Notes under the pieces: generated by a model
The model's database searches: none
Told to the model about the DNA's origin: nothing
What the model saw: only the letters and a program-made list of their open reading frames with translations
Assembly: GCF_016403105.1 (NCBI RefSeq)
Contig: NZ_CP046155.1
Span: 930,001 to 994,000 of the forward strand
DNA: 64,000 bases
Source: Leptolyngbya sp. BL0902
Lineage (GTDB): Bacteria > Cyanobacteriota > Cyanobacteriia > Phormidesmidales > Phormidesmidaceae
Direction: 5' to 3'
Position numbers and translations under genes: made by a program
Shown: in pieces, positions 2,179-37,495 of the stretch
How positions within the stretch are numbered: position 1 is the first letter of the stretch
Layout: each line of letters begins with the position of its first letter

Positions 2179-2299
2179 GGGAAATCGGGCGAAACGGGAC
2201 AGCCTCTATTGTGGCAGGGGGGTGGCAGCGGGGAAAGGGCGTGCCATGATCGGGGGCGGTTTTGCGGTCTAATAGTTGGGTATTGAGTGGACTTTGGCG

Positions 2300-6824: not shown

Positions 6825-7516
6825 AGATACCCAATCCTAGCAATGACACCGAAAGGAGAACCAGCGAGGCGAAAATTGCGCCGTGGTGTTCTGCTCTATC
6901 CACATCATCAGGGGAACTCAGCCGATTTCGAGGAATCTGTGTCAGTGCTTAAATTGGCTTCCGGAAATCGTCCTAAAGCCTCTGAAACCTAGTGTTTGAC
7001 CCCTATTATTTGGGCCAATGGACAGATTGCCCCCGTGCCCTCGCCCGATGCTAGCCATGGCGACGAATGTATCACTTTATTACAGCCTCGGCTTCGTAGG
7101 GCTCCGTAAGGAGGGTAATCCTACGACATGGGAGCGCTGTGGGTAACGCCATCGTGATCTATCTGTCGCCACGACCTCTTCCCCCTGGCCTCTTCTACGG
7201 AGGGCCTACGGACTATCGCTGAGATTCCTGCGCAGGATGTCCTAGAAACTACGGAGCATGGCGATGGGGAAAGGTGAGGATGGCAAAGAAAGCTGAGACA
7301 CGGACAATGAAGACAACTCCAAGCACAGTAATGTTTTGTGATAAACCTTTAGGGCCGAACGGTGTTTTCTTCGATTCTAACGGGCATCCTAGAGTTAGGG
7401 GAGCCCTGAACTGGCCCTCCCTAGCAAAACCTAGGTCGATGAACTAGGTTTGCCGTTAATATACCCACTCTTACCCCACCGATCCCCGATTCTATCCTGT
7501 ACTGACGAGGCTAACC
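6825..7516. other. 692-bp divergent intergenic region
   Basis: Lies between the HetZ-like gene (minus) and the receiver trio (plus). I see no gene with a plausible ribosome site. Several TACGGAG-type words recur (about 7197, 7209, 7251) with an inverted form CTCCGTAAGGAG near 7101, which could be operator-like, but the pattern is loose. AT-rich sequence TTAATATACCC occurs near 7455-7465, upstream of the first receiver gene. Confidence 0.35.
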
Positions 7517-8209
7517 ATGGCAAAGATTTTGGTGATTGAAGACGAGAAAGGCGTGCAGGATAATGTGGTTGACATTCTTCAACTGGAGGGGTTTACGGTC
7601 ACGTTTGCAGACAATGGCCTGCTGGGGGTGTTGATGGCACGGGCAGAACAACCTGACCTCATCATTTGCGACATCATGATGCCCGAACTGGATGGCTATG
7701 GCGTTCTAGATCAACTGCGCCAGAATCCGGAGACTGCTACGATTCCCTTTATCTTTCTCACCGCCAAGGCCGACACGGTGGATTTGCGCCAGGGCATGGA
7801 ATTGGGGGCCGATGACTACCTGACGAAGCCCTTTACCCCCCAGGAATTGCGTAAGGCGGTGGCTGTTCGCTTAGAAAAACAGGCCGCGATGATGGAAAAA
7901 TACCAGCAGGAGCGAGAACGGGCACTGACCTATCAGCGGCAGGCCCAGGAGCGGCAAAATATCATTGACACCCAGGAAGACTTTCTGCGCAAGATGATTA
8001 TGGACTTGCGGGATCCCCTGTCTAATATCAATATTGCCATTCAGCTTTTGGCCAGTAGCCAAGAAGAATCGGCGCGCCAACGCTACCTCAAGGTGCTGAG
8101 GGAGGAATGTTCTAAAGAAATTATGATGCTGAACCAAATGGCCCAGCTTCAAGACTTGATGTCTCCCCAAAATCTCAAGCTGTTGAATCAATTTAAGCTC
8201 ATTCAGTAG
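7517..8209 (+). CDS. response regulator with degenerate kinase-dimerisation tail
   Basis: The 230-residue protein has an intact CheY-like receiver at residues 1-120 (E8/D9 pocket, phospho-acceptor D52 in IICDIMMPE, T82, K104 in YLTKPF). A coiled stretch (about 118-150) follows, then a segment FLRKMIMDLRDPLSNI that aligns with the HisKA motif FL..VSHELRTPL but has Met162 in place of the phosphorylated His. There is no ATPase domain. It should therefore dimerise and receive phosphate, but not act as a conventional kinase. It is the first of three tandem genes with closely similar receivers; the next starts 51 bases downstream, so co-transcription is likely. Confidence 0.85.
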   Translation: MAKILVIEDEKGVQDNVVDILQLEGFTVTFADNGLLGVLMARAEQPDLIICDIMMPELDGYGVLDQLRQNPETATIPFIFLTAKADTVDLRQGMELGADDYLTKPFTPQELRKAVAVRLEKQAAMMEKYQQERERALTYQRQAQERQNIIDTQEDFLRKMIMDLRDPLSNINIAIQLLASSQEESARQRYLKVLREECSKEIMMLNQMAQLQDLMSPQNLKLLNQFKLIQ

Positions 8210-8260
8210 GCGGCGCTGGATGAGCAATATGTCTTTTTCTGCACTGCCCCCAGAGGCCCC

Positions 8261-9985
8261 ATGACTAAAATTTTAATCATTGAAGATGAAGCCTTCATCC
8301 GAGAAAATCTAGAGGATATTCTCTCCCTAGAGGGATTTGAAACCGTCACGGCTGCCGATGGAATGGCCGGGATTGCCATGGCCCAACGCGATCTCCCGGA
8401 TTTGATCATCTGCGACATTATGATGCCCTACGGGGACGGCTATAGCGTCATCCAAGCTCTGCGCAACGGCCCGCAGACGAAGGCTATTCCCTTTATTTTT
8501 CTCACGGCCAAGGCTGACCGGGCCAGTTTGCGCCAGGGCATGACCCTAGGGGCCGATGACTACCTCACCAAGCCCTTCACCCCCCAGGAGGTGATCGGTT
8601 CCGTCCGTACCCGTCTGGAGAGACAGTTGGCCCAACAGGCGGCGTTCCAGACTCGGCTCCAGGATCTTTCCGCGCAGTTGAGTGATCAGCGCATCATGGA
8701 TGCCGTGACCCGTCTGCCCAATCGCCTTGCCCTCACCCAGGCGTTCCATCGTCTACTGGCGGAGGACTCAGGGGCATCTCTGGCGGTTCTGTACCTAACC
8801 CTGAACCAAATGGGGTCGATTCGGGCGACCCTGGGGCCAGACCTCAACCCCACCCTAATTCGGCAGATTGGTCAGCATTTGATGGCCCTAGAGGCGGTGG
8901 GGGGGATGGCCTACCTGAGCGATCATCAGTTTGCGTTGGTGATGAGGCTAGGTGAGGGCCGTGACCTTGAAGGTCAGGTGGAGGCTGTGGCAGGAACCTT
9001 TGCGACCCCGATGCAGATATCCTCCCACGAGATTTTTCTGGCCCCTCGGTGGGGGGTAGCGGTTTATCCCCAGGATGGTGACGACCTCGATACCCTGCTG
9101 CTAGCGGCGGAACTGGCCGCGAGTCTATCGGAATTTAGCCCGAACGCCATCACCTTTTATTCCGACGACCTACAGCAGGATGCCAAGCATCGCTTTACCA
9201 TCGAGGCTGACCTCTACCATGCCCTCGACCAGCAGCAGCTCCAGGTCTATTATCAGCCCCAGTTTGCCATTCAAACGGAGCAACTGGTGGGGGCAGAGGC
9301 GCTGATGCGGTGGCTGCACCCGGTGCGGGGCTACATTTCTCCGGCTCACTTTATCCCCATCGCCGAAGCCTCAAGGCTGATTATCCCGATGGGAGAATGG
9401 GTGCTGCGGGCCGCCTGTCAGCAAGTCCAGCAGTGGCCGCAGTATCCCGCTGGGGGGCACATCTCCGTCAACCTATCCACCCGACAGTTTACGGAACCGA
9501 ACCTGATTGACACGGTGATCCATATCCTGGCGGAAACAGGGCTCTCTCCCCAGCGGCTGGAGCTCGAAATTACCGAAAGCATTCTCATGCAGGACGCCCA
9601 CCTGGCGGAACAGACCCTAGCTCATTTGGCCGAGTTGGGGGTGCGGATTGCCATTGATGATTTTGGGGTGGGTTATTCTTCCTTTAAGTATCTCCAGCGG
9701 TTTAGCCTCAACACGTTGAAGCTGGATCGGTGCTTTGTGCAAAGTATGGCCACCAACGCCAAGAATCCTAAAATTGTGGCAGCCATGATTCACATGGCCC
9801 ACGACCTGGGGCTAAGCGTAGTGGCGGAAGGCGTCGAACGCCAGGAAGAACTGGATCAACTGCGGGAGTTTGGCTGCGATATAGCCCAGGGCTATTGGTA
9901 TAGCCAGCCGATTCCCCCTCACCAGTTTGAACAGCAGTATTTTACTAGCCCAGTCACGCCGTCCGCAGGGCCAACCCCGCGATGA
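8261..9985 (+). CDS. response regulator with degenerate GGDEF and intact EAL domain
   Basis: The 574-residue cyclic-di-GMP signalling protein has a receiver at 1-120 (D52, K104). The GGDEF domain (about 150-305) has SDHQF in place of the GGDEF signature, so diguanylate cyclase activity is unlikely; it may be a GTP-sensing or structural domain. The EAL domain (about 315-560) keeps AEALMRW, the NLSTRQF strand, EITES, and IDDFGVGYSSFKYL with the downstream KLD and AEGVE motifs, so c-di-GMP phosphodiesterase activity is expected. Its receiver is a close paralogue of those in the flanking genes, suggesting shared phosphate donors and different outputs. Confidence 0.9.
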   Translation: MTKILIIEDEAFIRENLEDILSLEGFETVTAADGMAGIAMAQRDLPDLIICDIMMPYGDGYSVIQALRNGPQTKAIPFIFLTAKADRASLRQGMTLGADDYLTKPFTPQEVIGSVRTRLERQLAQQAAFQTRLQDLSAQLSDQRIMDAVTRLPNRLALTQAFHRLLAEDSGASLAVLYLTLNQMGSIRATLGPDLNPTLIRQIGQHLMALEAVGGMAYLSDHQFALVMRLGEGRDLEGQVEAVAGTFATPMQISSHEIFLAPRWGVAVYPQDGDDLDTLLLAAELAASLSEFSPNAITFYSDDLQQDAKHRFTIEADLYHALDQQQLQVYYQPQFAIQTEQLVGAEALMRWLHPVRGYISPAHFIPIAEASRLIIPMGEWVLRAACQQVQQWPQYPAGGHISVNLSTRQFTEPNLIDTVIHILAETGLSPQRLELEITESILMQDAHLAEQTLAHLAELGVRIAIDDFGVGYSSFKYLQRFSLNTLKLDRCFVQSMATNAKNPKIVAAMIHMAHDLGLSVVAEGVERQEELDQLREFGCDIAQGYWYSQPIPPHQFEQQYFTSPVTPSAGPTPR

Positions 9986-10131
9986 CCGCAAATGAGGGCG
10001 GTAGCCTAGGATATTGCCATCAGTGTGTTAGCTCCGCGTTTAGGTTTGATTTTTTGGCCCCGCTGAACCGTAAGACCGAACTTGGGCTCACCACTTCAGC
10101 CTCACCTTAGGAAAGACGAAGGACGTTCACC

Positions 10132-11268
10132 ATGAAAAAGATTTTAGTCATCGAAGATGATCTCCAGGTTCAAGACAATATCTACGACATTTTAAGCCTG
10201 GAGGATTTTTATACCATCACCGCCTCCGATGGGGCCGAAGGGTTGATGCTGGCCCAAGAGGAGCGTCCTGATCTGATTATCTGTGACATTATGATGCCCC
10301 AGATGGATGGCTACGCAGTCCTCGCTGCGCTGAGGGCGGATGAGAATACGGCAGCTATTCCCTTCATTTTTTTGACGGCTAAGGCCGACCGCGACGATCT
10401 TCGCCAGGGGATGGCCCTCGGAGCCGATGACTATCTCACCAAACCCTTCACCCCCGACGAACTGCGGCAGTCCATCAACGCCCGCCTCGCCCGCCTAGAA
10501 AGCCAGCAACAGCAGACCCAGCGCCAGGTCGATCAACTGCGAGACACCATCTCCTACGCCCTGCCCTACGAACTCAACACCCCCCTCGTCGGCATCATCA
10601 ACGGGGCTCACCTGCTGCGTACCAGCTACGCCTCCATGGATAAAGCCGAAATTGAAGAACTCCTCGGCGACATCGAGACCTCCGGCAATCGGCTCTATGC
10701 CCTGATCCAAAACTTCATCACCTACGCTGACCTAGAACTGGCCATTGCCAATCCCGAAACCGCCGACAAACTCCGGGCCCGAACCGAACCCTGCCTCACC
10801 GCCCCCGTTATCACCGCCGCCGCCGTTCAGCGGGCCAAGGCCGTCAACCGCGAAGCCGACCTCCATCTCGAACTTCAGGATGCCTACGTGCAAATTTCCG
10901 ACTGGCGGCTGAAAAAGGCCGTCCAGGAAGTGGTCGATAACGCCTTCAAGTTTTCGCCAGCGGGCAACCCCGTGAAGGTCATTAGCCACGTCAAAGATGA
11001 CCATCTGCACATCTTCGTCATCGACCAAGGCCGAGGCATGGACGCCGATCAAATCGAAGCGATTGGGGCTTATATGCAGTTCCAGCGCCGTCTCTATGAA
11101 CGACCGGGAAGCGGGCTAGGGCTGGCCATCGCCAAGCTCACCATGGCCCTCTATGGTGGCGAACTCAATATCGAAAGCTTTGTGGGTCAACAAACCACCG
11201 TCCGCCTCACCCTCCCCACCGCCCAGGATATTAATATTGCCCACCGCGCAGACGACACCTCAGCCTAG
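10132..11268 (+). CDS. response regulator fused to histidine-kinase-like module lacking the phospho-His
   Basis: The 378-residue protein has a receiver at 1-120 (D52, K104), then a HisKA-like helical hairpin whose key motif reads LPYELNTPLVGI, with Tyr146 where the phosphorylated His belongs. The HATPase_c domain (about 240-360) has an N-box VDNAFKFS, G1 DQGRGM and G2 GSGLGLAI, so ATP binding looks intact. Such a protein could phosphorylate another protein's His, act as an allosteric ATPase, or bind other kinases. Third gene of the receiver trio, with 146 bases between it and the second gene. A good terminator follows at 11274-11307, marking the end of the cluster. Confidence 0.87.
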   Translation: MKKILVIEDDLQVQDNIYDILSLEDFYTITASDGAEGLMLAQEERPDLIICDIMMPQMDGYAVLAALRADENTAAIPFIFLTAKADRDDLRQGMALGADDYLTKPFTPDELRQSINARLARLESQQQQTQRQVDQLRDTISYALPYELNTPLVGIINGAHLLRTSYASMDKAEIEELLGDIETSGNRLYALIQNFITYADLELAIANPETADKLRARTEPCLTAPVITAAAVQRAKAVNREADLHLELQDAYVQISDWRLKKAVQEVVDNAFKFSPAGNPVKVISHVKDDHLHIFVIDQGRGMDADQIEAIGAYMQFQRRLYERPGSGLGLAIAKLTMALYGGELNIESFVGQQTTVRLTLPTAQDINIAHRADDTSA

Positions 11269-11273
11269 GCACA

Positions 11274-11307
11274 AAAAGCCCCGGCGTCTGGAGGAAACCG
11301 GGGTTTT
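11274..11307 (+). terminator. intrinsic terminator after the receiver trio
   Basis: AAAAGCCCCGG pairs with CCGGGGTTTT across a 13-base loop, with one G-T pair, and ends in TTTT. It lies 6 bases after the stop of the kinase-like gene. Confidence 0.8.
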
Positions 11308-11358
11308 AGGTTATCTAGGTTCAGTAGATCACAAACGCACTCTTTTGCCACGATCCAG

Positions 11359-11449
11359 CCCTCACCCTAAATCCCTCTCCCAAGTTGGGAGAGGGACTTT
11401 GAAGGATTTTCCGGCTCCCCTCTCTTCTCTGGGAGAGGGGCTGGGGGTG
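11359..11449. repeat. GA/CT-rich palindromic repeat, copy 3 (double unit)
   Basis: Two units back to back in opposite sense: CCCTCTCCCAAGTTGGGAGA (with GGG following), then CTCCCCTCTCTTCTCTGGGA with its AGAGGGG arm and GGGGGTG tail. It fills the gap between convergent genes (receiver trio and transketolase). Confidence 0.7.
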
Positions 11450-23230: not shown

Positions 23231-26200
23231 CTAGGGGCAGAGATCGCGGTCGGCCTGGGGCACCTGGGGGTTGGTGCGTAAATAATCGTTCACCCAGGCA
23301 CAGGCGACGGTGAGGGGATCTAGGGTCAGAATTTCATCGAGGTTCCAATGCACCAGGCTACCATCGTCGCTGATGGAGGTGAGCACCTGGCCATCGGGGC
23401 GAAAGGCCACTGCCCGCACTCCAGAGGTATGCCCCTTGAGGGTGGTTAGGGCACGACCTTCCAAATCCCAGAGTCGCACCGTTTCATCTACACTACTGGT
23501 GGCCACTAGATTCCCCTGAGGACTAAAGGCCACCCCCCACACCGCTGCCTCGTGGCCATCGAGCGTGGCTACCAGGGATCCATCTTCACTGCGCCAAAGC
23601 TTGGCCGTGTTGTCGCCGCTGCCGGAAATAATCAGCGATCCATCAGGGCTATAGGCGACTCGCCAAGCGGCGAACTCGTGACGGAGGGTGTGGAGCAGGG
23701 TTCCATCCGGTTGCCACACTTTTACTAGGCCATCATTCCCCGCCGAGGCGATCTGCGTGGCTTGGGGATGGTAGGCCACATCCCAGGCGGGGGCCGTATG
23801 GGCGTTCCAGGTTTGGAGCAAATTGCCCTGGATACTCCATCGCCGCAGGATGCCGTTGGTGGTGGTAGCCACGATCTCCTGCCCCTGGGGATGCCACGCC
23901 ACCCCTAGGATGGGGCCACCGGGCTGGGAAATCGATTGCTGAAGTTGTCCAGTTCGAGCCCAAACCTTGAGAGTGCCATTTTCTCCAGCGGAAAGCAGTT
24001 CAGTTCCTGCGGGATAGAGGGCCAGGTTGGTGGTGGTCACCTGCTGGCTGTCCAGAATGTCATAGGTTAAGGCGGTGGCGGATATGCGTACGATGCCTGC
24101 CCCAGTCAGGGCTGCCATCAGCGTTTGGCCATTGTCGGCATACAACGCTTTAAGGTAGTGGCCCGCAGGTAATGACTTGAGACTGGTCTGGAAGGTATTG
24201 CGGGGCTGCCAAATCCGCACCGTGTTGTCGGCCCCCGCCGAGGCAATGATCTGACCATCGGGACTGAAGGCCACCCCCCAGACAATGGTGCGATGGCCTT
24301 GGTAGGTTTGCAGAAGATGGCCTTCGCGGCTCCAAAGCGCAAGGGTTTTATCGCTACTGGCAGAGGCGAAGGTTTGGCCGTCAGGGCTAAAGGCAAAGTC
24401 TTCCACAGAGGCTTCATGGTGCCGAATTTCCTTCAGCAGTTGGCCCCCACGGCTCCAGATGCGAATACTTTTATTGATGCTACCGCTAACAATCAGATTG
24501 CCATCGGGGCTAAAGGCCAGTCCTTGAACAGGTTCTTGGCCATGCTGCAAGGTGAGAAGACATTCCCCCTGGGCCGTCCATAGGGTAATACTGCCGTCAT
24601 TTCCCCCTAGGGCAATCGCGTCCTCCACCGGGCTATGGGCTAAGGAGCGCACCCTCGATGGTACTCCCCCCGTATCAATGGCCTCCAACGGTGTCCCATC
24701 CACTCGCCATCGATCCACATGATTAGCGGATCCTGCAACCAAGATCGTTTGACTATCGGGGCTAAAGGCCATCCCCCAAATTCCCGAAATCTCCGTGGTC
24801 AAGGTTTGGAGTAGATCCCCATCACGGCTCCACAGGTTGACCGATCCATCTTCGCCGGAGGAGGCCAACCACTGGCCATCGGGGCTGAAGCGCAGGGCGC
24901 GAATGGTGGACTGGTGCCCCGCGAGGGTGTTGATCCGGGAACCATCTCGGCCCCACAGATGAATGACCCGATCTACCCCCGCCGAAGCCAGACGAGTGCC
25001 ATCGGGGCTGAAGTCTACCGCCAGAACGGTGGCTTGATGACCATCGAGACGGTTGATCTGGTGAATGGTGAGGATCACTCGTTCTAGGATAGCCCTGGCC
25101 TGTTCCTTCAAGGCCGGGGGCACCCGATGCCAGCGTTCGAGCCGTCGCTGACCCCGAATTGCTTCAATCAGGGCATCAAAGTCCTGGTTGGAGGCAAACA
25201 GAGCCTCCGCCGTCCGAATGATGGACTGGGCTTCGTTGAGGGATGCCTGTCGATACTGACCCCAGGCCACCAGCCCCAGACTAATAGCCGTCACCATAGC
25301 CAACCCCATGCCCGCCAGCAGCCCCCGCTGCCGTTGCAAACTGCGCTGCTGCTCTTGGTTGCGCTGATACTCTGCCGCCAGCCGTCCCTCCATCTCCTGT
25401 AGGCGGGCGGTTTCCATGGCGGAGATGGTTTCCTGGCGGTCGAGATCCTGGCTAGCCGCCAAAAAGCGATAGTCCAAATCGCTGAGGCTTTGGCTTTGCG
25501 ACCACCGCAACATTTCCTGAAGCGCCTGCCCCCGCAGCAACCAGGCGCTATCTCCCCCAGAGGCCGCCCAGGCATTTAGGGCTTGGGAATAGGGCCGCAG
25601 GTGATCCAGTTGAGTCTGAATCCAATCTAAGGAAAAGACGGCTTGATAAATCCGGTTCTTGGCTACCAATTGACCCTGGCGCTTCGTCACCAGGCCCGAC
25701 AGCAGCAGTTCCGTTTGCTCCGGGCTACCGTCCACGGGTACCGAAGTCCCTGGGCTAATCACCCGTTGATAGAGGCTCAGCAACCGGGGCGCACGCTGTT
25801 CGTTGTACAGCAGACGGTTGCGAATCGTCCGCAGGTGTTCGGGAATGTCCTGGCTTTCCCAGTTGCCCAGCACATATTCCTGCACCAGGGTTTCTACCCA
25901 GGTAGCTTCCGTTCCTGGCGGCAGGCTGAGATCCTCCCTGGCGGCAGAATGACTCAGTTGGGCCACCAACCGACAGAGTTTTTGCGTCAGGAAGGGCTGG
26001 CCCCCCGTCCAGTCGAAGATGGCTTTGAGGAGGGCCGTGGGGTGATCCACTTGGTGCTGAAAGCCCACCATCAGCGGCTCAGCCTCATCCAGGCTGAAAT
26101 CCTCCATGTCAATGGAGCGGCCAATGTTGAAGGGAGTGCGCTGGGGGTCTTGAATCAAATCCGACGGAGTGGCTACCCCAAACAGCACCCAGGTCACGCG

Positions 26201-26719
26201 GTGGTAGGCGGGCTGGGTCGGTCGTTGCTCGTGACAAGCCCGAATGAAAGCAAAAAAGTCATTGACTGGAAAATCCAGCCCCAGCACGCTGTCTACCTCA
26301 TCCAGCAGGATAAACAGCCGGGTATTGGGGAGGTGGGCCAAAAGGTCATCCATCAGCAGCCGCAACTGCTGGACTGGGGGCTGATCGGCCCAATCTTGCC
26401 AGTGGGCCTTGAGGTCAATGGTGCTCAGCATTTGCAGCCTAGCTACCAGCTCCAGCATCACCCCCCGATACCATTGGTCGTGGGTCACTTGCTCGCTGCC
26501 CAGTTGGGTCATATCCAAATAGATGCAGCGATGACCCTGGTGCTCTAGCCGCCGCTGCATCCGCACCCGCAGGCTAGATTTCCCCATCTGGCGGGCGTTG
26601 AAGACGTAGCAAAACTCACCCCGATCTAGGGCTTCGTACAGTTCCCGATCCGCCTGCCGCACCACATAGACCGAGGCATCGGCGGCGAGACTGCCTCCAA
26701 CTTGGTAAATGGTTTCCAA
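23231..26719 (-). CDS. AAA-like ATPase (AAA_35) fused to WD40 repeats
   Basis: A 1162-residue protein. The N-terminal P-loop domain (about 1-330) has Walker [10 protein letters not shown] (42-50) and Walker [12 protein letters not shown] with Asp at 140, matching the cyanobacterial AAA_35/STAND-like group. A helical linker and coiled coil (about 430-470) precede one hydrophobic helix ([20 protein letters not shown], about 472-491). The remaining 600 residues are about 14 WD40 units with typical [20 protein letters not shown] and IRLWGRDG-like ends, enough for two beta-propellers. Such proteins are usually read as membrane-tethered sensors or scaffolds that bind a partner with the propeller and switch by nucleotide state. 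The ligand is unknown. Confidence 0.85.
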
Positions 26720-28231: not shown

Positions 28232-28988
28232 AGGTCAAACCAAGGATCAGCGGCTATTTGGGGGATATCTTTGAGTATCTTAATGTGGATCGTCCGCCTT
28301 GGCGAGATCGTCCACGACGGAAACCGTAATCGTTCTGATAACGGAAAACGATGACGGCAACGGAAGGCAACACCGCAGGCGACGGGGCCAGGGTAGGCGT
28401 CGGGCTGGAGGGTGATCTCCCCAGGGCTAGACCGGGAAGAACGCCTATTCATTTGCCCAAAGTTTGTAAAATCTCGAAAAAATACGCAACTCTGACTGTG
28501 AAGTTCTCACTAAGATAGAACCTAGAGGTGTGTGTGAACGAGATGGTTTCGGAATGGTTTAGCTGCGTTGATCCTAGGGCCAAAAGGCCCAGGCCACAAC
28601 GGCTCCGGGAATTTACGCAGGCTCGATTCGAGCTTCAATAAAAGGATGCCCTCCCCCCAGATTGATGCTAATTGTGAACCCAGGCCAACCCCTGATCGCT
28701 CCGCTACAATATCTGGGTATTTTAGGAATAGGCCTTGCCTGTTCCTAGATAGTTCTCCCCTTGACGAAAGGGGATGGGGTTTGCATCACCCCGGCAGCAC
28801 ACGCCCGTTCGGAACATAGGTTCAGCAAGGTTAGCCCGGTATCGGTTTCCATGGTCTGTGGTGGTGTGGCCCTTGGCTAGGGGTCACTCTAATGTGCCGC
28901 CCGGTCTGGCCATCGATGATTTCCCTGTAGGGTCTCTAGTCCAGCCGAGTCTCTGGTTTTGTCGTTTGGCGAAGCGGTTTTAAGAACT
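28232..28988. other. 757-bp divergent intergenic region before hpsA
   Basis: The longest gap in the window. It must hold the ndhH promoter (left part) and the hpsA leader. A near-perfect hairpin GGAATAGGC-CTT-GCCTGTTCC lies at 28725-28745, and a TACAAT box at 28705-28710 could be a -10 element just before it. A 33-codon frame from ATG 28541 has no recognisable product. No tRNA or known riboswitch motif was seen. Confidence 0.4.
28725..28745 (+). promoter_or_regulatory. leader hairpin upstream of hpsA
   Basis: GGAATAGGC and GCCTGTTCC pair over a CTT loop with one G-T pair. It sits 15 bases after a TACAAT box and about 240 bases before the hpsA ATG, so it would be near the 5' end of a long leader. 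It is not followed by a T run, so it is not a standard terminator. Confidence 0.4.
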
Positions 28989-31900
28989 ATGCATCTTCAC
29001 CTGCTTAGGAAAATTTGGCAGTTTCCGAGAACTGTCCTGAAGCGGTTTATTCAAGATTTATTGCGGCTGACGCTGCTGAGCACCCGACCGAGGCGCATGG
29101 CCCAGGCCGGGTTTGTGCTGCCAACGACGGTACTGCTGGTGCTGATGGTGGTGCTCACCGCCACCGCCCTCACCTACCGCACCTTCACCCGCAGCGAGCA
29201 GGCCATTGTGCAGCGCGAACAGCAGGTGATTGCCAACGCCGCCACCCCCGCCATTGACCGCGCCAAGGCGAAGATCGAGTTTCTATTTCGCAACGACCCC
29301 CGCTTTCCGGGCGACCTACCCAGCAGCGACTTCCTCTACGACATGATGTCTACCCGGCTGGGGAACCAAGAAATTTCGGGCTTTACCGGGCAGGTGGAGC
29401 CCCTGACGGGAGGTGTGGGCACGGGCACAGGGGCAAACCGTCCGGTAGACCCCTATACCCTGGCCGATGAAACCCGGGTAGATATCAACAACGACGGTCT
29501 CCTAGACAACGCCTGGAGCTTCCAGTCTCAAGGGCGCACCATTGTCTATTCCATTCTGGTGGATGATGAAGTGGTGGCCACCGAACGCAACGCCCCCGCC
29601 GCCACCGAAACCCGCCTAGCGCGGCCCTACGCCACCGCCAACCTGAACGTGATGATGCCCGTGAACCGGGCCAAGGCCAACGCCCTGATTACCCGCACTG
29701 GCCCCCTTGCGGCTGCCGAAGCTATCCCCAACTGCCCCAACGCCAGAGCCCAAGCAGGCTGGCAACCCGTGGCCCAGGGCAACTCTTCGACTCTGCAAAA
29801 GAATTTCCAAGTTACCGCCTTTGTGGCCAATGCCAACGGTGGCCCTGGCCAAACCTTTGAAACCCTAGAATTTCAGCAGTCTCGTCAGGCGTCTACCGCC
29901 AGTAAGTGGGGGGCCTGGTTCCGCTACGACCTCGACCTCTTCCCTGGGGCCGACTTTAACTGGAACGGGGCCATGCACACCGACAGCAGCCTGTTTGTGA
30001 ACCGGAATCTGGTTCACCTGCATATGGTGAGCTCCCACAATTCCTGCGTGTATAGCCAAGAAGCTTCGGAAATTACGGTGGGCCAAGACGACACCACCGG
30101 GTTCCAGGGCCAAGTGGTGAAGGGCAACGCCGTTAACGACACCTACCCGGCGGGCGATAACCCCACCATCCACGTCTTCACCAGCCTCGGCAACCCGCCC
30201 CGCACCGGAGATACCCTCACCAACGCCAACCACTCGGTACAGAATGGTCGGCCTTCGGATATTTCGGCTAACCCCATGGCCCTCTACACCCGCGACCGCA
30301 TGGAGCACATGCGGAGGGATTCTTGGCAGCGGCGGGCCGGATGGGATACCGATGCCAACATCTTTGGCGTGTTGGGCGGTGGCCGTACCGTCAATGCCCT
30401 GGTGGCCCGCCCCTTTGTGGATGACTTTTTCCGCGCCGACAACCGCTGGGGGCCAAAACCCCGCTACGATGCCCGCACCCCCGCCTTTGACGTTTCTAAT
30501 ACGGCTGGTCGCCGCATTGGGGATGCCATTACAGAGCCTGGTACCAACAGCTTGACCGATCCCTCCATTGGTTTAGACGGCTTTTGGGAACGGCAGGCCA
30601 TGCGTACCGGGCTGCGCCTGGTGGTGGGCCAACGGCTGGAACTGGGCAATAACCAAGAGTGGAACAGACCCCCCGCCGGAGTTCCCAACGAGGGCGATCC
30701 CCTCTATCCGGCCACGGCCCGTCCGGTAGCGAATGCTCGCTTTGGCGGCAACCACGAATATATGCAGCGCCGATCCTTGATGGATAACCTGGCGGCGGTG
30801 CAGGGCATGGTGGTCTACCACTACCAGAAAAACGGCGCAGCTGCCGCTACTGCAGATGCCCCAGGCGCATTCCCGGTAGCCTGCGTGGCCGCCACCGCCC
30901 ATCCCGGCACCCGCCAATCTATCCTTAATAGCCGCACCTTTAGCAGGTTCCAGCGTGCCGACGGCACACCCACTACCCTTACTCGCCTAGACTTTTTCAA
31001 TGGTGTGGGCACCAATGGATGGGAAGTGGCGTGGCCTACCAGCTTTGACACCGAGGGCAAGTTTGCCACCGAGATTGCCCCCAACCGCCCCCTGGGTATT
31101 GCCCTGCGCAACCTGGCCAACTTTGCCGGAGACCCCAGCGGTGGGGCACCCTCCTTCTCGGCCTTCCAGGATGATTTTGTCCACCCCTTCCCCTACCAAA
31201 GCATGTGGGGAGATTTTTCGCCCCTGCGCCGGATTCTGCTGAACATCGACTCGGCAGGAACCTACAGCACCGCCCGCTACGACGGCCTCAGCCCCGCCGA
31301 CAAAACCACCCTGCATACAGCAGCCTGCACCATTAGCCTGCTCGCCTACAACCTAGGTAGTGCTTACGCCATCCTGGATAGCGAACTCGGCACGCCACTC
31401 CCTAGCAACCTCAACTTCCAGAATATTTCCACGCAGTTGAGGAATGGGATGCGGAGCATGCTGGGCTTCATCGAAACTGGCGCTGACCAAGGTGGGAAAA
31501 TGCTGGCCCTATTCCGTCGCTTGGCCAACGAAGGGAGCTACAAACCTGGCCGTCCGATCCCCGGTGTGACTCCAACTACCTATCCACCCGGAACCCGGTG
31601 GGACGGCGTCTTTCCGGCGGCGGGGCCGCTCCAGACCCCGGCGGTATCTTTGGTGAATACATGGATTGACCCCAACCCCGGTACGGTGCTGAATCCACCT
31701 CTTAATCTGGATGGAACCCCCGCAACGAGGCCCAACGGCCAGCCAATCCCCAGCGTATGCCCACCCGGAACTGATGGGCCAGGCTTCCAACCCGACTGTG
31801 ATGCGGCGGAGTTCTTTGCCCAGTTTACCCGGCAAGATTGGCTCATTATGCTGGATGAACTGACCCCTGCCACTCCTCAACAAATTGACCTCATTCTGTC

Positions 31901-34166
31901 CTATGGCACGCGGATTGATGCCGTGCGCGACACCATGCGAGATCGGGCCTTGGGCTTTAGGGAGGGACTTACGCCTGAACGGTATCGGCTGGATAGACAG
32001 GATCTGACCACAGGCAACAATGTCCGCTGGGATAAGGACAGTGGCATGACGCAGGAGTACATTCCGATCAGCAACCTTGAATATCCCTTCCAACTCGGCT
32101 GTAGCCCCAACCTATTCTCTGAGACCATTGCTAAGGGGACTGGCGGCAAGGATGACCAAGTGGCGCTTACCCTAGTGGCCTGTAGCCCAAATCCTGATCA
32201 AGAAAGGGAAGCTGTACGTTTCCCATCGCTGTTCTATCTGTTCCCCCTTGAAAACCATGGCCTAGTTGGCACGGGGCCGATTGAGCAACCGGGCGGTACT
32301 CGTACCCATCCCGGTGATCCCCGATGGATCGACCGTATGACCGCCTACAACGACAACTATATTGCTGCCACGACGAATGGTGGTCGCGGTCTGCCCAGCC
32401 TCATGGGGGCCAATACCTTCCGAGTTGTGGGCACTGGTGATCGGGGCTTCACTGCTATCTCCGCTGTGCCCCGACTGGAAAGCAACTTGCCGAACTGGCA
32501 GCTTCCAGTGGCTACCACCACAGGGGCCTTAACCGTAGACAACCTAGACGATCAAGCTTCGGCCTTTAAGATCAACACTGGGACACTGGTGTTGCAGGTT
32601 CCGTTCCTTGAGAAGGGCATCTTCAATGGCCGAGAACAAATCAACACCCGCGTGCTAGACATCGACCTCGATGCTCTCACCACCCAGCCCGTGAGGGGCA
32701 CTGTCACTGGAACCGCCGACTTCTGGCTTTCCGCCGACCGGGATGGTCGCCAAGCAGAGGGGGCTGTCTACGCCTTCCGGGAAGACTCGGTGCGGGAGGA
32801 CGAAATTGTCCGCCCCCGGCAACCGGGTGCCACAGATTGTACGGGCATCACAGCGGTGGTACCCCGCCGTCTGCGGATTGAAACCGAGGCCAACTGTCGG
32901 ATGCGGGTGACGAATCCCTCCGAGCCTGTCTTGGCCAATAACCAAGATCCACCCCTCACACCCCAGGGCATTAGCCTCAAGCCCATCGACTTTGCCCCCG
33001 ACCCTGAGCGTCGGCCCTACGGCTTCCGGCTGAGAACCGCCAGCGGCAACCCCGCCGACTTTAGCGGCCCCAACTTTGCCCGCCGGGTGGGGATGACCTT
33101 CGTCACCGACGATGCGGTCTACATTCAGGGCAACTTCAACCCCCACAGCACCACCGGAGGCCAAAACGCCGCCGGGGTGCCCAACGGCCTCGTGGAGGAA
33201 TTTACCCAAACGCTGCTGGATCAAGACGCCGCCAACTTCCGCACCCGCTTCTACAACGGGCGCACCACCCTCAACATCGCCTCCTTTGCCAACCTAGCCG
33301 TAGATCGCTGGCGTCCGGTAGAAATTCTCTCCGACTCGGTTTCCATCCTGTCGAGAACCTTCCGCGACGGCGAAGTAGAAGATGCCTTCCTCAACGCCGA
33401 ACCCACTGCCGAAGGGGGGGCCAATTCCTCCTACATGAACCAAAACCGACCTCGGTTTGCAGCCAACCTAGCCGCAGATGCGCTAATTCGCTATCAGCGG
33501 AACGAAGCCCCTGGGACATTGACCAACGAGGTTCGAGCCAATAGCCGTCCCCTCTACATTGACCGCAGTGGTACCTACTACCTGCCTGGGGCCGACGCTG
33601 GGGATCCCCCTCGTCCGTTCTTTGATGTCTACAACAACAACAACGCCACCAGCGGATGGATGGAGTTTACGACCGCCGACGGCACTCGGCGGCGCAACAC
33701 CCAGGCGGCGGCTAATACCTTTGTTAATGCGGTGTTTGTGAGCGGCATCACCCCCAAACGACCGAACCAAAGCTATGGTGGTTTGCACAACTATCCCCGG
33801 TTTATCGAAAACTGGAATGGCCGCAGCCTGAGTATCTTGGGTTCCTTTATCCAGCTCAACTTCTCCACCGCCGCCACCGCCCCCTTCGACCAAGACGTTT
33901 GGGAACCTGGTGTGGATCCTGTAGCCAATGAGGTCATTGGCTACTACAACGCCCCTCAACGGCGCTGGGGCTATGATGTGGGGCTGCTGTATGTGCCGCC
34001 TGCCCCCGCCGCCCGACGGTTTGTTACCATCGGTGCCCCCCGTAGTGAGTACTATCGCGAGCTACCGTCCGATGATCCCTACGTCCAAAACCTGCGCTGT
34101 GCTAGGGCTGGCAATGCCTTCGTCCTCCCCGAGGCGATGCGAGCCACCGCTAACTGTCCGGCCTAG
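28989..34166 (+). CDS. hpsA: hormogonium polysaccharide biosynthesis protein HpsA
   Basis: A very large 1725-residue secreted or surface protein. The basic N-terminus (about 1-40) leads into AGFVLPTTVLLVLMVVLTAT (about residues 41-60), a single membrane helix that resembles a pilin-type N-terminal segment, followed by a long helix with YRTFTRSEQAI. The rest is Asn/Pro/Gly-rich and soluble, including WNGAMHTDSSLFVN, VQGMVVYHYQKNG and DAVYIQGNFNPHS. Size, N-terminus and the three pseudopilin genes directly downstream fit HpsA, needed in Nostoc for hormogonium polysaccharide release and gliding. ATG 28989 is preferred to a start ten codons upstream. Confidence 0.82.
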   Translation: MHLHLLRKIWQFPRTVLKRFIQDLLRLTLLSTRPRRMAQAGFVLPTTVLLVLMVVLTATALTYRTFTRSEQAIVQREQQVIANAATPAIDRAKAKIEFLFRNDPRFPGDLPSSDFLYDMMSTRLGNQEISGFTGQVEPLTGGVGTGTGANRPVDPYTLADETRVDINNDGLLDNAWSFQSQGRTIVYSILVDDEVVATERNAPAATETRLARPYATANLNVMMPVNRAKANALITRTGPLAAAEAIPNCPNARAQAGWQPVAQGNSSTLQKNFQVTAFVANANGGPGQTFETLEFQQSRQASTASKWGAWFRYDLDLFPGADFNWNGAMHTDSSLFVNRNLVHLHMVSSHNSCVYSQEASEITVGQDDTTGFQGQVVKGNAVNDTYPAGDNPTIHVFTSLGNPPRTGDTLTNANHSVQNGRPSDISANPMALYTRDRMEHMRRDSWQRRAGWDTDANIFGVLGGGRTVNALVARPFVDDFFRADNRWGPKPRYDARTPAFDVSNTAGRRIGDAITEPGTNSLTDPSIGLDGFWERQAMRTGLRLVVGQRLELGNNQEWNRPPAGVPNEGDPLYPATARPVANARFGGNHEYMQRRSLMDNLAAVQGMVVYHYQKNGAAAATADAPGAFPVACVAATAHPGTRQSILNSRTFSRFQRADGTPTTLTRLDFFNGVGTNGWEVAWPTSFDTEGKFATEIAPNRPLGIALRNLANFAGDPSGGAPSFSAFQDDFVHPFPYQSMWGDFSPLRRILLNIDSAGTYSTARYDGLSPADKTTLHTAACTISLLAYNLGSAYAILDSELGTPLPSNLNFQNISTQLRNGMRSMLGFIETGADQGGKMLALFRRLANEGSYKPGRPIPGVTPTTYPPGTRWDGVFPAAGPLQTPAVSLVNTWIDPNPGTVLNPPLNLDGTPATRPNGQPIPSVCPPGTDGPGFQPDCDAAEFFAQFTRQDWLIMLDELTPATPQQIDLILSYGTRIDAVRDTMRDRALGFREGLTPERYRLDRQDLTTGNNVRWDKDSGMTQEYIPISNLEYPFQLGCSPNLFSETIAKGTGGKDDQVALTLVACSPNPDQEREAVRFPSLFYLFPLENHGLVGTGPIEQPGGTRTHPGDPRWIDRMTAYNDNYIAATTNGGRGLPSLMGANTFRVVGTGDRGFTAISAVPRLESNLPNWQLPVATTTGALTVDNLDDQASAFKINTGTLVLQVPFLEKGIFNGREQINTRVLDIDLDALTTQPVRGTVTGTADFWLSADRDGRQAEGAVYAFREDSVREDEIVRPRQPGATDCTGITAVVPRRLRIETEANCRMRVTNPSEPVLANNQDPPLTPQGISLKPIDFAPDPERRPYGFRLRTASGNPADFSGPNFARRVGMTFVTDDAVYIQGNFNPHSTTGGQNAAGVPNGLVEEFTQTLLDQDAANFRTRFYNGRTTLNIASFANLAVDRWRPVEILSDSVSILSRTFRDGEVEDAFLNAEPTAEGGANSSYMNQNRPRFAANLAADALIRYQRNEAPGTLTNEVRANSRPLYIDRSGTYYLPGADAGDPPRPFFDVYNNNNATSGWMEFTTADGTRRRNTQAAANTFVNAVFVSGITPKRPNQSYGGLHNYPRFIENWNGRSLSILGSFIQLNFSTAATAPFDQDVWEPGVDPVANEVIGYYNAPQRRWGYDVGLLYVPPAPAARRFVTIGAPRSEYYRELPSDDPYVQNLRCARAGNAFVLPEAMRATANCPA

Positions 34167-34204
34167 CGCCCTGTTCCTGCATCCCTCTGGAGACCCTACG
34201 GCCC

Positions 34205-35002
34205 ATGAAACCCACCCGGTTCCTCCCCCCATCTGTCCTTAGGGATCGCGGCTCCCGTCTGGCTAGGGGCCTTCCCCTGGCCAACCATGCGGGCCTCACC
34301 CTGATTGAGTGTTTGGTGGCCATTGTGATGGTGGCGCTGGTGGCTAGCGCCATTACTCCAGCCCTGGTGCTGTCGGTGGCCACACGGGTACAAAGCCAAA
34401 AGGCCGAACAGGCCATGGCCCTGGGGCAATCAGAAATCGACCGCATCAGAACCCTGGCAGAACGGGGGCAGTTAGTGCCGCCGACCCCGTTGCCAGCCTT
34501 GACCGCCGACTCCGCGTTTCGGGGAGTTACGGAGGTGCCTGTGGCGGCTAACAATGTGCTGGATAACGACCCAGCGGCTCAGGTGGGGGCTGCCGTAGGG
34601 CTCAACAACATCGTCAACCGCAATGGCCCGGCCCTGCCCGCGACCACCAACCCCACCCAAACCCGCCAGTTTGACGTTAACAACGACGGCACCCCCGACT
34701 TTGTGGTACAAACCTACCGCACCCGTGGGCTGGTGGTGAATGGCGAACCCGTGGCCTTTGCCGTGGGGGTGCGGGTCTACGACTATAATGCCGTGGCCAA
34801 TGGCACAGGCGGCAACCTAGAGCGAGAGCCCATCTCCCTGGGCATTTCTGCGGGGCAGGGGCAGCGGCTACGACGCCCCATCACCGCCTTCTACACCACC
34901 GTCTCGGTTTCCGAACGGGGAGACTCTCTCTGCGATCTCCTGCGCTATTCCCAATCCACCACGGGCGTGAATGTGACGCGCCCGCCGGGTTGTCCGCCCT
35001 AG
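34205..35002 (+). CDS. hpsB: pseudopilin, HpsB-like
   Basis: A 265-residue prepilin-like protein. The leader ends HAG, then LTLIECLVAIVMVALVASAI forms the hydrophobic helix with Glu at position 5 after the processing site (about residue 30), as in type IV pilins and type II secretion pseudopilins. The C-terminal domain is about 200 residues with no Cys-rich core and includes NNDGTPDFVVQTYRTRGLVV. It starts 38 bases after the hpsA stop. Position and size match HpsB, a pseudopilin proposed to help export the polysaccharide. Confidence 0.75.
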   Translation: MKPTRFLPPSVLRDRGSRLARGLPLANHAGLTLIECLVAIVMVALVASAITPALVLSVATRVQSQKAEQAMALGQSEIDRIRTLAERGQLVPPTPLPALTADSAFRGVTEVPVAANNVLDNDPAAQVGAAVGLNNIVNRNGPALPATTNPTQTRQFDVNNDGTPDFVVQTYRTRGLVVNGEPVAFAVGVRVYDYNAVANGTGGNLEREPISLGISAGQGQRLRRPITAFYTTVSVSERGDSLCDLLRYSQSTTGVNVTRPPGCPP

Positions 35003-35098
35003 GGTGGCTGTAGCCCCGCCGCTGGGGTAAGCCCTGCCTGCCCCATGCGCCCACCTTGTTCAACTCGCCCAATTCCTGCCGTTACCTGGCCTAGCGCT

Positions 35099-36169
35099 AT
35101 GGCTACTTCTCCCTCCTCCCTCCCTTTCTTTCGCTGGCTGCTGCGGGCCAACCACACCAGCCAGCGCGGCTTTACGCTGATTGAACTGCTGGTAGCCATG
35201 ATCATTGGCTCCCTGATTATGGGCAGTCTGCTGTTTTTGGTGGTGGAGCTGATGCAGGCCAACCGCCGCGAGGAGGTGCTGACCCAAACCCAGCAGGATA
35301 TGCAGCGGGCCATCAACTACATCACCAGCGATGTGCGGGAGGCGGTGTTTGTCTACCCTAACCCCGCCGCTATTGTAGAACCTACCGTGGGCACCACGGT
35401 CGGCACCGATACCCTGCTAGACGAACTGGGAATTACGGTAAATGCGGCGGGGGTGGTGACGGCCCCAGCGGCCCTAGCGGGATCTACGCCGATTATGGCC
35501 TTTTGGCGGCTAGATCCGGTGCCTGCGGATAGTAACCTGTGGAATCGGGTGTGCTCGACGGCGTTTACGGGCAACCAGATCAATGAGTGCAACACCCTCA
35601 AACTACGCCAGAGCTTTTATACCCTGGTGCTATACTTCCAGCGGCCCAACCAGCCCAACGAGCTTTGGGGTGGCCCCTCGCGTATCCTGCGCTATTCCCT
35701 GCCTAAATACGGCACCGCCGATATCGCCACCCTCACCCAGCGCCGAGGCTATTCTGACCCTACGGTGTGTAACTCCTTTGCCACCTGGAGCGCTCCCCCA
35801 GGCCGGATTGCGGCTCAGCCCTGTGATGCGGGCAATGTTGGAGCCCCCGCCGCCGATATCGCCGTCCTGACAGACTACGTTAGCCTAGACGTGATCTCCC
35901 CAGCCCCCGCCTGTGGAACGGGGGGAACGACCACCCCAGCGACCAATGCACGGGGCTTTGCGGCCTGTGTCAATTCAGGTGCCGCTGGCGACCTGGGGGA
36001 AGGGGCTGGCGTCAACCAAACCATGCGAATCTTTTTGCAGGGCAACGCCACCCAAGGGCGTCCCGGCCTAGTCAATACCTTTAACGAGGCGGGGCGCTTG
36101 CCCGTCCTAGAGGCTGAGGTGTTGATTCGTGGGGTGTTGAACAAGCAACCTGGCATTGTTCCCCAATAG
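35099..36169 (+). CDS. hpsC: pseudopilin, HpsC-like
   Basis: A 356-residue prepilin-like protein. The processing motif is SQRGFTLIELLVAMIIGSLI (Gly at about residue 24, Glu5 of the mature chain). The helix continues into a large C-terminal domain resembling PilW/GspJ-type minor pseudopilins: QQDMQRAINYITSDVREAVF is the typical amphipathic part. It contains several Cys. ATG 35099 gives a normal short leader; an ATG at 35045 adds 18 residues and cannot be excluded. It follows hpsB by about 100 bases in the same operon. Confidence 0.78.
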   Translation: MATSPSSLPFFRWLLRANHTSQRGFTLIELLVAMIIGSLIMGSLLFLVVELMQANRREEVLTQTQQDMQRAINYITSDVREAVFVYPNPAAIVEPTVGTTVGTDTLLDELGITVNAAGVVTAPAALAGSTPIMAFWRLDPVPADSNLWNRVCSTAFTGNQINECNTLKLRQSFYTLVLYFQRPNQPNELWGGPSRILRYSLPKYGTADIATLTQRRGYSDPTVCNSFATWSAPPGRIAAQPCDAGNVGAPAADIAVLTDYVSLDVISPAPACGTGGTTTPATNARGFAACVNSGAAGDLGEGAGVNQTMRIFLQGNATQGRPGLVNTFNEAGRLPVLEAEVLIRGVLNKQPGIVPQ

Positions 36170-36228
36170 CTTGGGTCTCCCGCGTCCATAGCCTGCTTCC
36201 TTCGTCGTCCTGTCTATCCGGTTGAACC

Positions 36229-36777
36229 ATGAAACCCGCTCTGACTGCTCTCTATCGCCTAACCGCCCGTCAGCGATCTCAATCGGGGTTTACCCTCCTA
36301 GAATTACTGGTGGTTGTGATCATTGTGGCGGTGCTAGCCGGAATTGCTGCTCCGGGCTGGTTGGGCTACCTCAACCGTCAGCGGGTGGGGGCCATCCGCA
36401 GCGATTTGGTTCAAACCCTGCGCTCGGCCCAGCAGGATGCCCAACAACGCCGACAAACCATGACCGTGGCGGTGGTTAACGAAAATGGTCGGCCTCTGCT
36501 GCGGCTAAATGGCGTTTCCCAACCCCTGGGCGGCGATAGCAACCCCAGCAATATCCGGGTAACGCCCTTCAGCTTTAACCCCGATGGCAGCCGCAACACC
36601 ACCATCACGCAAATTAGCTTCAATCACCAGGGTATTCCCGTCGGCAACGTTCCCTTTGTGGTGGATATCGTTAGCGATGGATCCTCAGCCCGTCAATGCG
36701 TTCGCATCGAAACCCTCCTCGGCACCATCAAAACCTTAGACGGCGCGGCCTGCGATACCCCCAACCTCGGCATCTAG
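36229..36777 (+). CDS. GspH/FimT-type minor pseudopilin
   Basis: The 182-residue protein has the class III signal motif SQSGFTLLELLVVVIIVAVL (Glu5 present) and an extended FimT/GspH beta-domain. Two Cys near the C-terminus (ARQCVRIE and GAACDTPN) could form the disulfide seen in many minor pilins. It is the third pseudopilin of the hps cluster and probably corresponds to HpsD in position, but I am not sure of the symbol. Its stop codon shares the CTAG palindrome with the stop of the convergent hydrolase gene. Confidence 0.8.
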   Translation: MKPALTALYRLTARQRSQSGFTLLELLVVVIIVAVLAGIAAPGWLGYLNRQRVGAIRSDLVQTLRSAQQDAQQRRQTMTVAVVNENGRPLLRLNGVSQPLGGDSNPSNIRVTPFSFNPDGSRNTTITQISFNHQGIPVGNVPFVVDIVSDGSSARQCVRIETLLGTIKTLDGAACDTPNLGI

Positions 36778-37382
36778 GCTAGGGCTTGCAGCACCAGGGC
36801 CTGCACCTGGGGATGGTTCATCATGAAGGTGTGCCAGACAGGCACCTGTAGGACTTTGTCTTGGGGCGTGATATAGGTTTCGGTAAGGGCCACGACCCCA
36901 TCGTTGATCTCCTCCCCAAAGGGGCTGAGGGGGCCAGTGGGGCCACCCGTCCCGGCGATGATGGTGTAGGGGCTTGGCAAGGGCGGCAACTGGGCATAAA
37001 ACCGCTGACAGGTGAGGTTGCGCCCGCACTGCCCGGTCAACCACTGAAAGGGCCATAGATTCCAGGCCAGGGGGGCCAACCGAGGGGGTTGGTTGGGGGT
37101 GCCCAGCATCACTACCTGGTGCGGCAGGGTGGGCACTGGCCCCATTCCCAGGGCGGCACGGGTGAGCACCCCGCCGAGGGAGTGGCCCACAATGCCGTAG
37201 GGGCCTTGGTGGGCTAGGGCTTGGATCCGCTGGTGTAGCCGTTGGGCAATGGCGTCAAAGTCTTCGGCAAAGGCAACGTAGCTAAAGGGTTCGGTGTGGT
37301 GTCCGGCATGGCGCAGTCGTTGGTCTAATAGGGCTAACGAGAGGGAGGTACGGGCGAGGCCGTGGATGAGCAGCAGGTGCAT
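36774..37382 (-). CDS. alpha/beta hydrolase (lipase-like)
   Basis: A 202-residue alpha/beta hydrolase. HLLLIHGLART gives the oxyanion-hole strand, GHSLGG (about residue 68-73) holds the nucleophile Ser, VVMLGTPNQPP is the following strand, and a late His in PVWHTFMMNHP is a candidate catalytic base, with Asp in EINDGVVAL the likely acid. These are typical of small esterases/lipases similar to the cyanobacterial permease-like lipase group. The ATG at 37382 puts the first strand at the start; an upstream ATG at 37433 adds a Pro-rich stretch. Substrate unknown. Confidence 0.82.
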   Translation of the reverse strand: MHLLLIHGLARTSLSLALLDQRLRHAGHHTEPFSYVAFAEDFDAIAQRLHQRIQALAHQGPYGIVGHSLGGVLTRAALGMGPVPTLPHQVVMLGTPNQPPRLAPLAWNLWPFQWLTGQCGRNLTCQRFYAQLPPLPSPYTIIAGTGGPTGPLSPFGEEINDGVVALTETYITPQDKVLQVPVWHTFMMNHPQVQALVLQALA

Positions 37383-37495
37383 GGGGAATCGGGGTTGCAG
37401 AGGGGAAATCGGGGGTGGAGGCTGTGGATCCATTCACCATTGAGGGTAAATGGCTGGGCGTAAAATGTGAGCGGTGAATCGGAGGTAGGGCAAGG

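Follow-up and report, generated by a model that had tools for sequence, protein, structure and literature searches.

Described systems related to hpsA-D

In Nostoc punctiforme, the hps locus is described as hpsA followed by three pilin-type genes (PMC6495340, PMC4284469), hpsA-D and hpsE-G being regulated differently (PMC6495340). The first gene product, HpsA, is called a hypothetical membrane protein in PMC6495340 and functionally unknown in PMC4284469. A like arrangement was analyzed here in the cyanobacterium Leptolyngbya sp. BL0902, in a stretch of 64,000 nucleotides (contig NZ_CP046155.1, positions 930,001 to 994,000) that we call the window: four consecutive genes on the plus strand, hpsA and then three prepilin-type genes, occupy window positions 28989-36777. 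Compared with the published arrangement of N. punctiforme, hpsE-G do not lie downstream, HpsA falls in another clade than the HpsA proteins encoded near hpsE, and HpsB and HpsC score below their cut-offs. In Leptolyngbya boryana, the locus tags in PMC10581220 place hpsA, hpsB, hpsC, and hpsH next to each other and hpsE elsewhere, so that the unlinked state has already been published; hpsE exists in that species, whereas none was found in the BL0902 genome.

Other related systems come from pili and their tips. In Synechocystis, the genes pilA9-pilA12 correspond to slr2015-slr2018 (names from PMC7076178), and cells no longer flocculate when pilA9-slr2018 and half of slr2019 are deleted (PMC6755745). 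A 2025 review puts forward the hypothesis that different sets of Synechocystis minor pilins form different tip complexes (PMC12288463). The priming complex of Myxococcus (PMC7541494) resembles the present locus in having four minor pilins, of which PilX lacks the glutamate at position +5 (Glu5); its large tip protein PilY1 is separate, whereas here it would be fused to a pilin. The same source states that Glu5 is absent from GspK and from the PilX homologues of several species, that PilX tops the stack of minor pilins, and that GspK has been proposed as the ultimate tip of the pseudopilus. ComZ of Thermus thermophilus is described as a GspK-like pilin that carries an inserted solenoid, is encoded beside other minor pilins, and has been proposed to sit at the pilus tip (PMC6561018). 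It was the second row in our structure comparison, but unlike HpsA it has 498 residues in the crystal chain and binds DNA, and no significant sequence match between the two was found.

We suggest, as a reasonably likely reading, that hpsA-D encodes the minor-pilin tip (priming) complex of the type IV pilus, with HpsA as a giant fused tip subunit; the four genes read as a full K-I-J-H minor-pilin set. The hpsA-D operon was already known, and the assignment of HpsA as the tip pilin is the new part: neither a role of HpsA as a K-type tip pilin nor its tie to PilA12 was found in the searches made of open-licence PMC papers.

The N-terminus of HpsA and its three prepilin-type neighbors

The hpsA gene (28989..34166, plus strand) encodes a giant prepilin-like protein of 1,725 aa, or 1,735 aa if read from the TTG at 28959 that opens the frame (28959-34166). 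The ATG at 28989 is the better start, as it matches the first codon of close relatives (loci L107-L109); residue numbers below are counted from the TTG. With 619.8 bits, the protein exceeds the cut-off of 400 set for the NCBIfam model EPS_HpsA (NF038301). Among 35 aligned HpsA proteins, Gly51, Phe52, and Pro55 are invariant and a hydrophobic stretch comes next, pointing to a putative prepilin-peptidase site from G51/F52 to Thr56 at +5 (29109..29126, plus strand). AlphaFold2 predicts a long alpha1-like N-terminal helix at aa 54-111 (29118..29291, plus strand; helix 10-67 of the fragment modelled from aa 45).

The survey covered 105 distinct HpsA frames longer than 900 aa, after four duplicate frames had been dropped. 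With three broken or truncated frames left out, the +5 residue is Thr in 95 of 102 HpsA proteins and Glu in none. Glu occupies this position in 87 of 90 HpsB, 89 of 92 HpsC, and all 110 HpsD proteins, the remaining three HpsB and three HpsC frames appearing too long or damaged at the 5' end. Judged by sequence, HpsA starts like a prepilin without Glu5, as tip subunits of the GspK/PilX class characteristically do; two features of K-type tip pilins, a prepilin-like start and an alpha1 helix (here a predicted 58 aa) without Glu5, are found in it.

The following proteins have 265, 374, and 182 aa, all pass the Pfam N_methyl model, and have Glu at +5. The intergenic gaps of 38, 42, and 59 bases and the common strand suggest an operon. 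The product of hpsB (34205..35002, plus strand; motif GLTLIE) best matches the HpsB model (NF038303) with 64 bits, under the curated cut-off of 150, and is tentatively a GspI/PilV-like minor prepilin (PilV E 0.03, GspI E 0.058). That of hpsC (35045..36169, plus strand; GFTLIE) best matches HpsC (NF038304) with 106.2 bits, under the curated cut-off of 200, and has a similarly tentative GspJ/PilW-like role (GspJ E 7e-4). HpsD (36229..36777, plus strand; GFTLLE) is a GspH/FimU-like minor prepilin that passes Pfam GspH (22.8 bits, cut-off 21) and matches TIGR01708 GspH at E 2e-10, below the curated cut-off. Three Glu5 prepilins and one prepilin-like protein without Glu5 thus stand together, as expected of an H-I-J-K set, with the I and J roles tentative.

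The first-pass annotation had recognized the HpsA family and the three Glu5 prepilin-type proteins, both of which are confirmed by the models and the +5 residues above. It had also reported that hpsE-G are missing directly downstream, and indeed a convergent alpha/beta-hydrolase-like frame follows there (36774-37433, minus strand), overlapping the end of hpsD by 4 bases. What it had missed is the prepilin-like N-terminus of HpsA itself, without Glu5.

Pilus machinery of the genome

The BL0902 genome (4.7 Mb, estimated 99.99% complete) contains one PilC-type platform, a single T2SSF protein with two domains, and one secretin. Four motor-type ATPases are above the cut-off; frames of 679 and 384 codons adjoin each other just before PilC, as expected for pilB and pilT. 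The N_methyl model, which can miss pilins and above all those without Glu5, detects five frames, namely HpsB, HpsC, HpsD, and two others, which were judged by eye to be a major pilin resembling PilA and another GspH-like protein. The profile of the PilA12/Slr2018-type proteins described below matched only HpsA in this genome.

A type II secretion system would be expected to have its own platform and secretin beside the set of the type IV pilus, whereas only one T2SSF protein and one secretin were found. No second H-I-J-K set is visible in the genome, which makes HpsA-D the natural candidate for the priming or tip complex of the single pilus. More than one set may exist elsewhere, as additional prepilin-like frames without Glu5 occur in loci L101-L103 and L106, and some genomes have two HpsA proteins. 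As a separate observation, locus L198 has two tandem copies of a frame (1965-2986, minus strand) near the PilA-like major pilin gene (1060-1626); the copies share their N-terminal membrane stretch but differ in their charged tails.

Shorter homologues of the PilA12/Slr2018 type

Weak HpsA matches in other cyanobacteria led to nine proteins of 783-939 aa that lack Glu5 and share an invariant Gly-Tyr start. The gene for each one closes a run of prepilin-type genes. In seven of the nine loci, three separate frames stand before it; in the other two, only two preceding frames were called, and H, I, and J were assigned by position and N-terminal motif. In a profile comparison the shorter proteins match HpsA with 99.9% probability (E 4.5e-34). 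When the ends were compared separately, one gave 96%, and the C-terminal end gave 99.6% (hhalign, E 7.4e-25). Conversely, the HpsA model matches all nine shorter proteins, at best with 6.5e-21 and always below the cut-off. PilX_N matches two of the nine weakly (E 0.16).

From gene order and size, the shorter homologue is probably of the Synechocystis PilA12/Slr2018 type. In Synechocystis the pilin-like genes end in slr2018/pilA12, as they do in loci L094-L104, whose last protein is homologous to HpsA. By gene order and size we take L094-L104 to be of the pilA9-pilA12 type; their order is H-I-J-K, whereas that of hps is K-I-J-H, and their last protein has 783-939 aa, compared with 1,384-2,817 aa for HpsA.

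Of the 386 phylum genomes, 13 encode a shorter homologue, and none of these is among the 95 with a strong HpsA match. Fifteen genomes had matched at E <= 1e-25; G115, where the match was a cross-match to its HpsA, and G384, which has a shorter relative, were left out, and in two of the 13 (G113, G290) the match is in pieces. The shorter homologue fills the HpsA slot in these 13 genomes without a strong HpsA. In G384, which belongs to another class of the phylum, a 612-aa HpsA relative lies beside three prepilin-like frames (L105, 1472-4888), which suggests that the family predates hormogonia.

Gene order and distribution of hpsA and hpsE

After exclusion of 13 of the 105 loci with fewer than 3,600 downstream bases, the order A-B-C-D on one strand is found in 87 of 92, and the arrangement in the window is therefore not due to chance. 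Among the five exceptions, no B or C is seen in L049 and no D in L051 and L072, L060 has in the B slot a prepilin unmatched by BLAST, and L127 has C in two frames. The HpsA model matches 111 of the 386 phylum genomes at E <= 0.001, 95 strongly and 16 weakly.

The HpsE counts are lower bounds, as at most five candidates per genome were scored, and at most two in the survey of PilA12/Slr2018-type proteins. HpsE is above the cut-off in at least 53 of the 386 genomes, and at most 42 of the 95 strong-HpsA genomes are without a detected HpsE; the 53 and the 95 both include G379, in which HpsA and HpsE are broken. In at least 29 genomes, 25 of them of family f7, HpsE lies within 25 kb of HpsA. The HpsA tree (35 rows, unrooted, with hpsE labels assigned by hand from the genome searches) contains two well-supported groups with long branches between them. 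In the clade of the window's HpsA, none of 24 rows has hpsE within 25 kb, with 16 having none detected in the genome and eight having it elsewhere, whereas seven of 11 rows in the Nostoc-type clade have hpsE within this distance. Thus hpsA-D is the broader unit, and an adjacent hpsE was found in only one of the two groups of the tree.

In the BL0902 genome all 18 HpsE candidates were scored and no orthologue was found (best 39.6 bits, 30% identity); no separate search for hpsF or hpsG was made, and in L058 the HpsE model picks up the next glycosyltransferase as well, which lies at the place expected for hpsF. Since both other genomes of the same family in the sample, G164 and G209, carry HpsE on other contigs than HpsA, this lineage has probably lost an unlinked hpsE.

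Two damaged loci were seen in the course of the survey. L106 (G379, family f7) has HpsA in pieces with many stops and HpsE with six stops, in apparent joint decay. In L035 (G209, 6911-11406), HpsA is split into two overlapping frames of 322 and 1,200 aa by a frameshift or an assembly error.

Predicted structure of HpsA

The AlphaFold2 model of HpsA aa 45-830 (mean pLDDT 70) contains the 58-residue alpha1 helix, followed by long strands and then by a series of short ones. The pilin-like beta-sheet region at aa 185-310 (29511..29888, plus strand), with strands between fragment positions 141-159 and 234-266, falls within the range aligned to residues 18-131 of ComZ (Z 4.6). In a VIA-align comparison with 581 PDB chains, the top row was chain 9a1f_T of the XcpGHIJK pseudopilus (Z 6.1, root-mean-square deviation (rmsd) 11.1, 142 residues), which, judged by its length of 295 residues, is probably the K subunit, and the second was ComZ, 6qvi_B (Z 4.6, rmsd 3.7, 90 residues). 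Both are kinds of fold that were expected beforehand, but both matches are weak. The modelled N-terminal region of HpsA is likely to have a pilin fold. In the AlphaFold2 models, a conserved block of short strands at aa 318-388 (29910..30122, plus strand) opens the distal head, and the conserved C-terminal head region spans aa 1195-1735 (32541..34163, plus strand; predicted template-modelling score (pTM) 0.77). Both are homologous to the PilA12/Slr2018-type proteins.

A pattern search found a calcium-loop-like motif, DxNxDGxxD, at aa 175-183 (29481..29507, plus strand), and the same pattern in 80 of the 105 HpsA proteins. Pfam searches with the N-terminal regions of 51 members gave weak EF-hand/dockerin-like matches in a few, and lone weak ones such as INV_N (0.041) and DA_N (0.17). 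An enzymatic role of HpsA was considered and rejected, as Pfam revealed no enzyme family above chance in the window protein or in these 51 of the 68 available N-terminal regions. HpsB (34205-35002) also holds a calcium-loop-like DVNNDGTPD and an FG-GAP match (E 0.0098), the pattern being present in 19 of 86 HpsB proteins. The size of the HpsA head varies about twofold, with open frames of about 2,500-3,160 codons in G187:C66, G340:C1 (L066), and G171:C1 (L049).

Alternative explanations

Several observations weigh against a tip complex headed by HpsA. The HpsA leader of about 40 residues is long for a prepilin, and the roles assigned to HpsB and HpsC rest on weak matches. The hhalign comparison with GspK of E. 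coli K-12 is not significant (0.7%, E 0.086), the N-termini nonetheless being in register, and profile searches of PDB with HpsA returned no relevant chain. The model of aa 45-830 has a pTM of 0.53; methyltransferases and phage coat proteins, which are unrelated, score about as high (Z 3.6-4.1) as ComZ (Z 4.6), and both top rows are below the value of 8 under which VIA-align warns. Foldseek found no match at E <= 0.001 for the N-terminal or the C-terminal model, and for the latter VIA-align had none of 22 chains at Z >= 2. No HpsA match was obtained in 275 of the 386 phylum genomes, so that other cyanobacteria must either have a different tip subunit or lack one. All 53 HpsE genomes are strong-HpsA genomes, so that a link to hormogonium polysaccharide is kept. 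Among 14 control genomes the HpsA model has a match, below the cut-off, in one, Deinobacterium chartae, a relative of Thermus, the genus with ComZ; Thermus composti, a control from this genus, has none. The PilY1 search was negative in all 386 genomes but also silent in the controls, and is thus uninformative.

The first-pass annotation had explained the locus by a dedicated secretion pseudopilus, an explanation not far from the older view in the field: separately from the motility pilus, HpsA-D would form a short piston, like that of a type II secretion system, and export either hormogonium-type polysaccharide or HpsA itself. The NCBIfam families are indeed named hormogonium polysaccharide proteins and secretion pseudopilins, and the restriction of HpsE to HpsA genomes fits such a role. 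With one platform, one secretin, three of the five N_methyl frames lying in this locus, and no other H-I-J-K set seen, however, a separate pseudopilus has no support in this genome and is unlikely; the lack of a detected HpsE here and in a part of the strong-HpsA genomes, as well as the homologues in genomes without strong HpsA, also speak against it. The same annotation regarded the locus as possibly reduced or split, that is, a Nostoc-type hps locus from which hpsE-G were lost. This stands insofar as no hpsE was found in the genome and relatives have it on contigs apart from HpsA. Against it, the four-gene unit is complete, and hpsE adjacency is confined to the other clade; the absence of any neighboring hpsE among the 24 rows of the window's own clade argues that the locus is not a decayed Nostoc cluster, and we consider this history improbable, although the unrooted tree would allow for an old split.

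Little probability is likewise left for HpsA being no pilin subunit but a polysaccharide-binding or -processing cargo that rides the pilus, with HpsB-D as carriers. The very large head, the calcium-loop-like motif, and the insignificant GspK match would agree with a cargo, whereas the invariant prepilin-like N-terminus with its 58-residue helix, the position of HpsA homologues as the last genes of pilin operons, and the Pfam searches, in which enzyme families gave at most lone weak matches in one member each of 51, would not.

Other features of the window

The promoter and terminator scan gave fewer sites than shuffled sequence and is uninformative. Upstream of hpsA, the translation of a 1,162-aa frame (23231-26719, minus strand) resembles an ATPase domain with WD40-type repeats after it, although matches to propeller models are weak.

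A model of the proposed HpsA-D tip complex and its implications

In the proposed tip complex, HpsB, HpsC, and HpsD would be the I/PilV-, J/PilW-, and H/FimU-type subunits and HpsA the K/PilX-type one. All four would insert into the inner membrane by their own alpha1 helices and be cleaved by the prepilin peptidase PilD, in HpsA presumably after Gly51. Lacking Glu5, HpsA would take the outermost position, with B, C, and D forming the layer below that joins PilA, and its head of well over 1,000 residues would replace both PilX and a separate adhesin at the tip. Polymerization of PilA by PilB and PilC would be initiated by this complex, and the pilus would leave through the secretin with the HpsA head leading. 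The head may then hold on to a ligand, for which extracellular polysaccharide or a surface is most likely and another cell possible, and PilT retraction would pull. That the calcium-loop-like motif tunes the head is speculation.

More tentatively, HpsA and the PilA12/Slr2018-type proteins may form one cyanobacterial family of fused pilin-adhesin tips that replaces PilX plus PilY1, with either form present in each genome that has the family, and the name HpsA may be a misnomer for a pilus tip that grips polysaccharide. Mutants without pilus extension (ebsA, pilB, hfq) are reported to stop releasing hormogonium polysaccharide (PMC11407516), hence a defect of the tip complex could look like a polysaccharide defect, and this may explain the family name.

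The analysis names a concrete candidate tip set with a per-residue signature, and ties the hps genes of filamentous species to the pilA9-pilA12 type of unicellular ones. It would also make the shared phenotypes of hps and pilus mutants explicable, the tip complex being needed for pili and pili for polysaccharide release.

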